The notes under the pieces: generated by a model
Told to the model about the DNA's origin: nothing
The model's input: the letters and a program-made list of their open reading frames with translations, nothing else
Database searches by the model: none
Assembly (NCBI GenBank): GCA_017404205.1
Contig: JAFRCV010000002.1
Coordinates: 62,001-126,000 of the forward strand
Reading direction: 5' to 3'
Source of the DNA: Erysipelotrichaceae bacterium
Lineage (GTDB): Bacteria; Bacillota_I; Bacilli_A; Erysipelotrichales; Erysipelotrichaceae
Length of the DNA: 64,000 nucleotides
Made by a program: the position numbers and the translations under genes
Part shown: piece by piece, positions 17,081 to 21,723 of the stretch
Layout: each line of letters opens with the position of its first letter
Position numbering within the stretch: the first letter of the stretch is position 1

Positions 17081-18754
17081 ATGAGCTATCAAGTTTTATA
17101 TCGTACCTATAGACCTGCAAAATTTGAAGAAGTTGTAGGCCAAGATTACATAATAAAAATATTAAAAAACGCTAATAAATCTAATAAAATTGCTCATGCG
17201 TATCTTTTTGCTGGGCCTCGAGGAACAGGCAAAACAACAATCGCAAAATTATTTGCGAAGGCAATTAATTGTGAAAGCTTTAAAGAAGAAGCATGTGATG
17301 AGTGTGACAGCTGCATAGCTTTTAATAACAATTCACATCCAGACATAATAGAAATGGATGCTGCCAGCAACAATGGCGTAGATAATATTCGTGAAATTGT
17401 TGAACAAGTAAATTACGCACCTATTCTAGGCAAATATAAAATATATATAATTGATGAAGCTCACATGCTGTCTGATAGCGCATTTAATGCTTTACTTAAA
17501 ACATTAGAAGAACCACCAACACATGTTATCTTCATTTTAGCGACAACAGATCCTGAAAAAATAATCCCAACAGTTTTATCAAGATGTCAAAGATATAATT
17601 TTTCTAAAATCTCAAAATTTAATATGAAAAAGAAAATGATTGAGATTTTAAACAAAGAAAATCTTAAATATGATGAAGAAGCGATTGATGAAATTGCGAC
17701 AATGGCAGAAGGCGGGATGAGAGATGCATTATCAATTCTTGAACAAATGCTTTCATATAATGATTCAGGTGTTTATAAAGAAGATGTATTAAAGGTATTT
17801 GGTTTATCAACAACTGAAGAAAAAATAAATCTATTAAATGAAGTACATAGTCATAATATTGCCTCGGCAATAAAACACCTTCGTGACATTTACCAAGCTG
17901 GTAAAGATGTTAAAAAGTTGGCGATTGATTTATTAGAAATAATAAAAGAAGCTTTAATATATAGTGATGATGCAGATGAAAAATTACTTAATAAAATAAA
18001 TCCCGTTGAAGCAAAGAGCCTTTTAGATTCTACAAATATCCAAACATTATTAAATGATATAAATACATTAAAAGAAGTATTAATCAATAATCGCATAAAT
18101 CAAAATTTCTTATCATATTTAGAATTGGCTTTTATTAAAATGGCAAACAATCAAGAAAACAACGAAATAAAAAAAGTTGAAAATAATAAGCCAGCTATTA
18201 AAGAAGAAAAGAAAAAAGAAGTAGTCAAAGAGATTATAAAAGAAGAAAAGATTGTAGATAATAAAGTAGAAAAAGAAGAAATAATTAATAATGTAGAAAA
18301 TGTTATTGGCGAAGATAATAACTATATCGCTGCATTATTGTTAGGTGCCAGCAAGAGTGAAAAGATTAATGATGCAATAATTTTTAATAAATTGGATTTA
18401 TATAAAAATGAAGTTGATAAAAGAAAGTATTATGAATTATTAAATAAGGCAGAACATTTTGCCAGCAACAAAGATGCCATTATTATCTTTACTGAAAACG
18501 ATGCGCAAGCTAATAATATTAACTCACTAGAAATCAGAAAAGAGTTATATTCATTTATTATGAATGAATTTAATATCAATAAAGTAATCGTGGCTACTAA
18601 TAAAGACAATAAAAAAGATATCGTTAATTTATATCGTGAGCTTGCGAAAGAAAAATCAAGTGAAATGCCAACAATCGAAAAGCCCGAAATCAAAAAAGCT
18701 CGCACAAACGAAGAAAAACTAAAAGAATTATTTGGTGAAGTGAAGGTAAAATAA
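17081..18754 (+). CDS. dnaX: DNA polymerase III subunits gamma/tau
   Basis: Clamp-loader ATPase. 557 residues. Walker A is GPRGTGKT at 45-52, a zinc module has Cys64, Cys72, Cys75 and Cys78, Walker B is IIDEAHML, and the sensor region contains TTDPEKIIPTVLSRCQ. Domain III ends about residue 360. A Lys/Glu-rich linker and a C-terminal domain (from about 415) follow, as in tau. At codons 363-366 the sequence A_AAA_AAA_G is followed in the -1 frame by Ser and a TGA stop (18178-18180), which would give a 366-residue gamma-like product. The stop overlaps the recR ATG by one base; the usual ybaB gene between dnaX and recR is missing. Confidence 0.96.
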   Translation: MSYQVLYRTYRPAKFEEVVGQDYIIKILKNANKSNKIAHAYLFAGPRGTGKTTIAKLFAKAINCESFKEEACDECDSCIAFNNNSHPDIIEMDAASNNGVDNIREIVEQVNYAPILGKYKIYIIDEAHMLSDSAFNALLKTLEEPPTHVIFILATTDPEKIIPTVLSRCQRYNFSKISKFNMKKKMIEILNKENLKYDEEAIDEIATMAEGGMRDALSILEQMLSYNDSGVYKEDVLKVFGLSTTEEKINLLNEVHSHNIASAIKHLRDIYQAGKDVKKLAIDLLEIIKEALIYSDDADEKLLNKINPVEAKSLLDSTNIQTLLNDINTLKEVLINNRINQNFLSYLELAFIKMANNQENNEIKKVENNKPAIKEEKKKEVVKEIIKEEKIVDNKVEKEEIINNVENVIGEDNNYIAALLLGASKSEKINDAIIFNKLDLYKNEVDKRKYYELLNKAEHFASNKDAIIIFTENDAQANNINSLEIRKELYSFIMNEFNINKVIVATNKDNKKDIVNLYRELAKEKSSEMPTIEKPEIKKARTNEEKLKELFGEVKVK

Positions 18755-19353
18755 TGTATCCTAATAAATTTATAAAACTAATAGATATATATGAAAAATT
18801 ACCAGGTGTAGGAAATAAAACAGCACAAAGGTATGCTTTTAGTTTGTTGGATTATTCAAAAGAAGAAATAGATGAATGCATTAAAGCGTTACAAGATGTT
18901 AAAGAAATAAAAAAATGTAAGTGCTGCGGTTTTTTGGCAGATGAAGAATATTGTCCAATATGTCTAGATTCAGGTCGTGATGAGAATACCATAATGGTTG
19001 TTGCTTATCCACAAGATTTGGTTGCTATAGAAAAGATAGGAACATATCATGGACTATATCATGTGCTTGGTGGTTTAATCTCTTCAAGCAAGGGTGTCTT
19101 TCCAGAAGATATTGAAATTGATTCGTTGTTAAAACGCATTAATGAAAACACAAAGGAAGTTATAATTGCGACATCACCAACAATGGATGGTGAAATGACA
19201 GCACTTTATTTAGATCGCATATTAAAAAATAAAAAAATATTTGTGACAAGATTGGCACATGGTCTACCAATGGGATCTAATCTAGATTATGCTGATGAAT
19301 TGACATTGATAAAAGCTATGGATAATCGCCAAGAGATGAAAGAAAATGATTAG
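18754..19353 (+). CDS. recR: Recombination protein RecR
   Basis: Forms a DNA clamp with RecO that helps RecA loading; works with RecF (692). 199 residues, normal length. An N-terminal helix-hairpin-helix (KLPGVGNKTAQRYA), then a C4 zinc finger CKCCGFLADEEYCPIC, then a Toprim domain (VVAYPQDLVAIEKIG and HVLGGLISSSKGV). Start ATG shares one base with the dnaX stop; the end overlaps the next gene by 8 bases. Confidence 0.96.
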   Translation: MYPNKFIKLIDIYEKLPGVGNKTAQRYAFSLLDYSKEEIDECIKALQDVKEIKKCKCCGFLADEEYCPICLDSGRDENTIMVVAYPQDLVAIEKIGTYHGLYHVLGGLISSSKGVFPEDIEIDSLLKRINENTKEVIIATSPTMDGEMTALYLDRILKNKKIFVTRLAHGLPMGSNLDYADELTLIKAMDNRQEMKEND

Positions 19354-20478: not shown

Positions 20479-21351
20479 ATGTCAGCCATCGCTTATATTA
20501 CTGATTCTAAATTACTTGAACTCCATCGTTTAAATGCACATAAAACGATGAACTTTTGGCGATTATCAACAAAGAACAGTTTTTCAGATTTTGGTAAAGA
20601 CGATTTAGTATTTTTCTTATCAAAAGATAAAGAATTGATGAAGAAAAAAGAAAAAGGAATCGTCGGTTTTGGAAAACTTGATAGTATATATTCCTATGCA
20701 CCAAAAACAATGTGGAATAAATTTGGAAAAGAAAATGGCTATAATAGTTACAAAGAATTTATTGAGGCAATAGAAAAAGTTAGTAAAGGACATGAACTGC
20801 CAAAAAAGATTTCATCATTTTATTTAAAGAATGTTGTCTTTTTTCAAGCACCAATTTATTTAAGTGAATTAAATATCAACATTTCAAATAAAGTAGAATC
20901 ATATGTCTATATAAAACCAGAAGAATCAGTAATTAAATTATTAGAATATGGAAAAGATGCTGTTGATATGTGGAGCGGTGATGACGAATTAGTGAATCTA
21001 ATTGATGATGAACAATTAGCTTATTCAATAAAACTTGCACATAAAGAAATAGGCGATTTCAATTTAGATGAAAGAAAACTAAAATCCGCAAATCGCACAA
21101 TGAAAAAATTGATTGAAAAAAATCCAGGTTCAATGTTCATTGGTAAATCAAAATTAGATGTTTCTTATATTAATAAAAAAGATGTATTAATTGTTTTGTA
21201 TCATGATAAAGATTTAGATTATCGATTATTAGTTGGGCAAGCTCAATTATATAAGAAATATATAAGAACATATTATCATGGTGCATATAAAATCTATTTT
21301 AAGACTTGTGATAATAATAAAAAAATAATTGAATTAATTAATAACGTATAA
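20479..21351 (+). CDS. EVE/PUA-like domain protein of unknown function
   Basis: A 290-residue protein. Residues 1-150 resemble the N-terminal domain of HNH restriction endonucleases that has an EVE/PUA-like fold: NFWRLS (25-30), DDLVFFLSK (41-49), KGIVGFGKL (59-67), MWNKFGKENGYNSYKEF (78-94) and VVFFQAPIYLSEL. Such domains read modified bases in DNA or RNA. The C-terminal part (180-290) has no HNH motif and is not recognised. It lies 5 bases after the Card1-like gene and before a weak terminator, so the two share a transcript with recR. A paired role (recognition plus cleavage) is inference. Confidence 0.5.
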   Translation: MSAIAYITDSKLLELHRLNAHKTMNFWRLSTKNSFSDFGKDDLVFFLSKDKELMKKKEKGIVGFGKLDSIYSYAPKTMWNKFGKENGYNSYKEFIEAIEKVSKGHELPKKISSFYLKNVVFFQAPIYLSELNINISNKVESYVYIKPEESVIKLLEYGKDAVDMWSGDDELVNLIDDEQLAYSIKLAHKEIGDFNLDERKLKSANRTMKKLIEKNPGSMFIGKSKLDVSYINKKDVLIVLYHDKDLDYRLLVGQAQLYKKYIRTYYHGAYKIYFKTCDNNKKIIELINNV

Positions 21352-21369
21352 GACCTAAAAGGTCTTTTT
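21350..21369 (+). terminator. Weak terminator after the EVE-like gene
   Basis: A 6 bp stem AAGACC (21350-21355) / GGTCTT (21361-21366) with a TAAAA loop and following T run. It closes the dnaX-recR-Card1-like-EVE-like unit. Confidence 0.6.
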
Positions 21370-21387: not shown

Positions 21388-21723
21388 ATGAAAAACAAAT
21401 ATCAAAAAGCAGGATTAAACTATGAATTAATCACACAAAAATTTCTTGACCTAAATGAATATGAAGAAATAGTAAACACATATTTATCTGATCCATTTTT
21501 TAAGGAAATAGAGAAATTTTTAGATGATGAAGATTATGCTTTAGCTAAAGATGCTACAAAAGGATTATATTTATTAGCTCAAGACTTACAACTATTTCCT
21601 TTATATTTTGCGCTACTTGAAATCTATGAAGATTTAGAAAGTGAACTATATAAAGAAGCAATGAAACATTATCGAGATATGTTAGAAACATATGGACGCA
21701 TAAAAGGAGTATTTAATGTTTGA
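21388..21723 (+). CDS. Hpt-like four-helix protein without the phosphorylatable histidine
   Basis: A 111-residue all-helical protein. The stretch EKFLDDEDYALAKDATKGL (42-60) followed by AQDLQLFPLY resembles histidine phosphotransfer (Hpt) domains, in which the centre reads AHTLKG-x-xxNLGL. The phosphorylated His corresponds to Asp55 here, so phosphotransfer is unlikely. The C-terminal ETYGRIKGVFNV overlaps the mnmG start by 8 bases. The Hpt relation is my reading of the pattern and not a search result; no sensor kinase or response regulator lies nearby. Function unknown. Confidence 0.4.
   Translation: MKNKYQKAGLNYELITQKFLDLNEYEEIVNTYLSDPFFKEIEKFLDDEDYALAKDATKGLYLLAQDLQLFPLYFALLEIYEDLESELYKEAMKHYRDMLETYGRIKGVFNV

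Follow-up and report, generated by a model that had tools for sequence, protein, structure and literature searches.

Organization of the Locus

The window, a stretch of 64,000 nucleotides from the genome of an Erysipelotrichaceae bacterium (1.62 Mb, 99.7% complete), contains a run of genes that leads from dnaX through recR to mnmG (Table 1). The gene under study, which we refer to as the reader gene, lies within this run behind a gene of the CARF-nuclease kind, and the spacer between the two is 5 bases, as the earlier note on this DNA had reported. The open reading frame proposed there, which encodes 290 amino acids, is a real gene and has 65+ full-length homologs in the family. The layout of the genes from dnaX to the reader gene fits a single transcript. 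The hairpin that follows the reader gene is weak by itself, with two terminator-like sites found versus 1.2 expected in shuffled sequence. The 111 amino acid ORF farther downstream has no Pfam match; it is conserved in several genomes (genera g1 and g45 among others), where it likewise sits between the reader and mnmG genes.

Table 1. Genes, domains, and signals around the reader gene (positions within the window)
Feature	Position	Strand	Remarks
dnaX	17081..18754	+	First large gene of the run; order same in relatives
recR	18754..19353	+	Overlaps start of CARF-nuclease gene by 8 bases
CARF - winged-helix-like - PD-(D/E)XK protein, DUF1887 (VC1899/Can2/Card1) family, 375 aa	19346..20473	+	PADLOC CARF_PDDEXK, Foldseek, motif alignment
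Reader gene (290 aa, ATG start)	20479..21351	+	65+ full-length Erysipelotrichaceae homologs
Reader protein, predicted N-terminal PUA/ASCH/EVE-like domain, residues 1-165	20479..20973	+	AlphaFold, Foldseek, hhalign, conservation
Reader protein, C-terminal domain, residues 166-290	20974..21348	+	AlphaFold secondary structure; no family or PDB match
Terminator-like hairpin and T tail	21350..21366	+	Immediately 3' of reader gene; 7 pairs
111-aa ORF	21388..21723		Between reader gene and mnmG
mnmG	starts 21716		After the 111-aa ORF

A Conserved N-Terminal Half

The AlphaFold model of the reader protein, built from an alignment with 65 relatives, has a pLDDT of 90.8 and a pTM of 0.87. Its best match to a solved structure in a Foldseek search is ZmASCH (5y6c; E-value 1.3e-6, TM-score on the target 0.64-0.70). 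Other matches include AF2351, MJECL36, and the N-terminal domains of McrB from S. marinus (6n0s) and T. gammatolerans (6p0g), and YTH domains are matched only weakly. The matches are single-domain in size, consistent with residues 1 to approximately 165 of the reader protein, and a fold library of viral proteins yields matches of the N-terminal (ASCH/EVE) type only. In the model, this half is predicted to be a PUA/ASCH/EVE/McrB-reader fold with the PUA-like core of approximately 140 amino acids that characterizes the superfamily, in agreement with the fold that the earlier note had guessed from the sequence. The motifs quoted in that note are indeed conserved, with F26, W27, R28, D42, F45, F46, K49, G63, G65, W79, and G87 near-invariant in the reader family. 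The same holds for R17, K59, P125, Y127, E140, Y144, and W165, and almost all near-invariant residues of the family fall in the N-terminal half.

Standard family models do not capture this domain. Scans of the window protein against Pfam, NCBIfam, and PADLOC give no significant family, and the best PADLOC match in the reader family is a weak one to PDC-M11B (6e-5 for the best member). The Pfam EVE model (PF01878) does not match the window protein; four of 65 members match it at an E-value of 1 or less (best 0.017), all short of the curated cut-off. A PDB profile search with the whole reader family finds no relative.

ZmASCH (PMC5615036) allows a closer comparison. In an alignment that is weak (E-value 0.04), the near-invariant K59 of the reader aligns with K53, the cleft lysine of ZmASCH. 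Unlike the window reader, ZmASCH is a stand-alone domain, and two of its other cleft residues have no apparent match in the reader: in the weak alignment Ser128 is aligned with Tyr127, and Phe45/Phe46 are found where Tyr47 is expected, outside the aligned stretch. The Y47F substitution in ZmASCH reduces both binding and RNA hydrolysis (PMC5615036).

A Variable C-Terminal Domain

The C-terminal region (approximately 125 amino acids) has a confident AlphaFold model, with its secondary structure in the order alpha-beta-beta-beta-alpha-beta(-alpha). Profile searches against families and the PDB give no match, and the fold search gives no good one. Across the whole reader family, G253 is the sole near-constant residue of this domain, and a longer motif, R249...G253-Q254..L257-Y258, is conserved only in the clade that carries the CARF-nuclease gene (card+). 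There is no family-wide set of polar catalytic residues in the alignment of this domain, and the domain is therefore probably not an enzyme. When pairs of equal N-terminal identity (0.4-0.7) are compared, C-terminal identity is slightly higher in card+ pairs (0.22-0.27) than in card- pairs (0.14-0.22), the pairs not being independent of one another.

Kinship to Restriction Enzymes

The first half of the protein had been said to resemble the reader domain of HNH restriction enzymes, with the HNH nuclease replaced by another domain, and both statements have held up. The profile of the reader family matches two EVE-like/HNH_2 proteins from another family of the same class (E-values 4e-10 and 1e-9), the C-terminal half of which is HNH_2. 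An hhalign comparison of the reader family with the HNH enzymes gives a probability of 97% and an E-value of 5e-11 over approximately 100 columns. The reverse search, started from one such HNH enzyme, retrieves dozens of recR-linked genes via residues approximately 15-155. It also yields a 527 amino acid long reader-HNH protein in an Erysipelotrichaceae genome (L154:1495-3078), which has an HNH domain at its C-terminus and a reader domain 49% identical to that of L126, one of the HNH enzymes, over residues 12-169. With kinship found in both directions, the window protein has its reader module in common with likely modification-dependent restriction enzymes. No HNH domain is found in the window protein by Pfam and family scans. 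A TrbL-like gene lies upstream of the L154 gene, and the reader module is also found on an apparent conjugative element.

Several described systems share the fold. The EVE-HNH enzymes (VcaM4I, PMC7897488; L126, L127, and L154) have a PUA-superfamily N-terminal reader in common with the window protein, and L126 and L127 belong to the same sequence family. The likeness to VcaM4I is one of fold superfamily and rests on its published description. Unlike these enzymes, the window protein has a different C-terminal domain in place of HNH and a fixed chromosomal location next to recR. The N-terminal readers of McrB have the superfamily fold as well; unlike McrB, the window reader has no AAA+ GTPase domain, and no McrC-like gene adjoins it. 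EVE modules act as readers in restriction enzymes (PMC7897488, PMC7641849), where they flip and bind 5mC/5hmC (PMC7897488), and EVE domains are found in many non-defense contexts (PMC7641849). PcdA of S. aureus, a McrB relative that bears an EVE domain and has been recruited for cell division (PMC10602043), is a precedent for a cellular role of such a restriction-system protein. Unlike the window reader, PcdA is an AAA+ protein at a different locus, and the comparison is one of role. Defense and housekeeping readings of the reader gene thus both have precedents.

The CARF-Nuclease Neighbor

The product of the upstream gene, which the earlier note had called Card1-like, matches the PADLOC model CARF_PDDEXK (E-value 5.7e-20). 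Its structural model (pLDDT 91.7) matches VC1899 (4.8e-24), Can2 (5.7e-21), and Card1 (1.9e-16) in Foldseek, and the protein is predicted to have the full CARF to PD-(D/E)XK architecture of this family. With these proteins it also shares the E-x-D motif, E278-x-D280 being the counterpart of E276/D278 in Can2, where the double mutation abolishes activity (PMC7969007). The E-C-K of Can2 and VC1899 corresponds to S293-x-K295, with S-x-K in all aligned relatives; the glutamate of (D/E)xK is lost, and the motif alignment shows no complete E-x-D ... E-x-K active site. The protein further differs from Can2 and VC1899 in its CARF domain, where the GGTK stretch is altered, and in the absence of Cas10 above cut-off. 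The Cas10 palm model (PF22335) has no match in the window's own genome and none above cut-off in any of the 28 genomes with the CARF gene. Three genomes of the window's genus (L151, L152, and L153) give weak sub-cut-off matches to this model (E-values 1e-4 to 9e-4). VC1899 has been described as an orphan (PMC7969007), and the neighbor is likewise an orphan DUF1887 protein. A profile comparison of the reader and CARF families finds them unrelated. A second CARF-like match in the same genome (L061) was set aside; by inspection it looks like an ATPase of another kind.

Distribution and Linkage of the Two Genes

The reader gene is present in 89 of 146 sampled Erysipelotrichaceae genomes, as one chromosomal copy each. 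About 40% of the genomes have no detected copy, which indicates that the reader is not essential to this family. In a class-wide profile search the gene is found in Erysipelotrichaceae only, apart from two HNH proteins, and a scan of genome contigs gave just two close relatives. One match (L012, genome G068) contains a single in-frame TGA. Among 40 sampled stretches that have no CARF-nuclease gene at the locus, 36 have recR upstream of the reader gene on the same strand, either directly or with one or more genes between, usually fhs (formate-tetrahydrofolate ligase). The intervening fhs is seen in many genomes of the family, e.g., L063:4306-5970; an AP-endonuclease-2/xylose-isomerase-like protein and CpXC also occur in this position. 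The reader gene belongs to the recR operon; it is chromosomal, occurs across the family, and has for the most part been inherited vertically.

The CARF gene is less common. It is found in 28 of the 146 genomes, in 19 of them at the reader locus; the copies in genera g20, g26, and g33 are divergent and have no reader gene next to them. The earlier expectation that the two genes would occur together is borne out in part. In five genera (g1, g57, g18, g45, and g37), the CARF gene immediately precedes the reader gene in all 18 genomes that have both on one contig (in genome G145 they are on separate contigs), but most genomes with a reader have no nuclease gene. The reader occurs in far more genomes than the nuclease gene, and for this reason we reject the CARF-reader pair as the basic unit. 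At card+ loci, both the upstream neighbor (recR, fhs, or an unrelated gene) and the downstream neighbor vary while the two genes stay joined, so that the CARF-reader junction is the only one never seen broken in this clade. For instance, the order in g45 is recR-fhs-CARF-reader, followed mostly by the 111 amino acid ORF and mnmG, and the g37 pair sits at a site apart from recR.

In the reader tree, g1, g57, g18, and g45 group in a single clade (SH-aLRT 100) and g37 stands apart; two changes in the presence of the CARF gene are needed. A single origin of the card+ arrangement is possible on this tree. The correlation of RecR and reader distances is 0.66 (52 loci), and that of CARF and reader distances is 0.94, or 0.74 as a partial correlation given RecR (16 card+ loci), for pairwise distances that are not independent. 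These values fit vertical co-inheritance and perhaps reflect co-evolution; the correlated distances and the R/GQ/LY motif come from one clade and represent few independent events.

A Proposed Housekeeping Reader and Its Possible Roles

Our tentatively favored reading is that this member of the PUA/ASCH/EVE superfamily, with a module shared with type IV restriction enzymes, binds nucleic acids in a housekeeping role, and that in one clade an orphan DUF1887 protein has become its partner. On this view the gene has been retained on the chromosome, within the dnaX-recR-(fhs)-mnmG run, for a housekeeping function. The conserved N-terminal cleft may hold a base of DNA or RNA that is flipped out or modified, a role to which the fold and the kinship with restriction enzymes point, and the fast-evolving C-terminal domain might be a docking or dimerization module. 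The orphan CARF-nuclease-like gene would have been placed directly before the reader gene in g1, g57, g18, and g45, and also in g37, and then stayed there. In that clade the two proteins could form a complex, with the reader selecting a nucleic acid that the CARF protein then acts on or scaffolds. The pair may protect the cell, take part in repair or in the quality control of RNA, or simply travel together. A bolder reading, in which the two make up an undescribed two-protein system and a modified-base reader controls the Can2-like protein of this clade in place of CRISPR cyclic oligoadenylate, for defense or nucleic-acid quality control, is conceivable but doubtful.

Taken singly, both proteins are of familiar types, the reader being one of the PUA superfamily and its neighbor an orphan DUF1887 protein. 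A recR-operon reader that carries this C-terminal domain and is paired in a fixed way, in one clade, with a DUF1887 protein has apparently not been described; literature searches that combined EVE/ASCH with DUF1887/VC1899 gave no paper dealing with both. For orphan DUF1887 proteins, VC1899 among them, no trigger is known, and the clade that keeps one tied to a base-reader protein offers a testable candidate partner. The reader family is also a likely further example of a restriction-enzyme reader module that works as a chromosomal housekeeping gene beside recR.

The pair could instead be a two-component modification-dependent defense system, whose reader would bind modified bases in phage or plasmid DNA or RNA and recruit or license cutting by the CARF-PD-(D/E)XK protein. 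This we consider unlikely: the fixed housekeeping locus and vertical inheritance contrast with the mobility of island genes, the reader stands alone in most genomes, and the glutamate-to-serine change extends to all aligned relatives, even though the module shared with HNH restriction enzymes, a partner that has the Can2/Card1 fold and retains E278/D280, an adjacency never broken in five genera, and correlated CARF-reader distances speak for it.

Nor is it probable that the CARF gene simply entered the recR operon on one or two occasions and was carried along, with no cooperation between the proteins. Hitch-hiking of this kind would account for the conservation of the reader where the CARF gene is absent and for a tree that needs just two changes, and unrelated genes (fhs, the AP-endonuclease-2/xylose-isomerase-like gene, CpXC) are likewise found between recR and the reader. 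It fits poorly with a junction that stays unbroken in the clade while the neighbors on both sides change, with a g37 pair that is together though away from recR, and with the partial correlation that persists given RecR.

Two further possibilities concern the reader protein itself. It is quite unlikely to be what remains of a type IV restriction enzyme with EVE and PD-(D/E)XK domains after the C-terminal nuclease domain lost its active site. Such enzymes have been described (PMC7641849), and both the secondary-structure order of the C-terminal part and the card+ GQxxLY stretch resemble PD-(D/E)XK cores; against this, that part matches no nuclease family by sequence or profile, has no good fold match, and lacks E-x-K. 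Least of all do we expect the N-terminal domain to be an enzyme of the ASCH kind, whether a ZmASCH-like single-strand RNase or an amidohydrolase such as YqfB: the best fold matches and the aligned cleft lysine speak for it, and the tyrosine opposite ZmASCH Ser128 in the weak alignment, together with the phenylalanines where Tyr47 would be expected, speaks against it.
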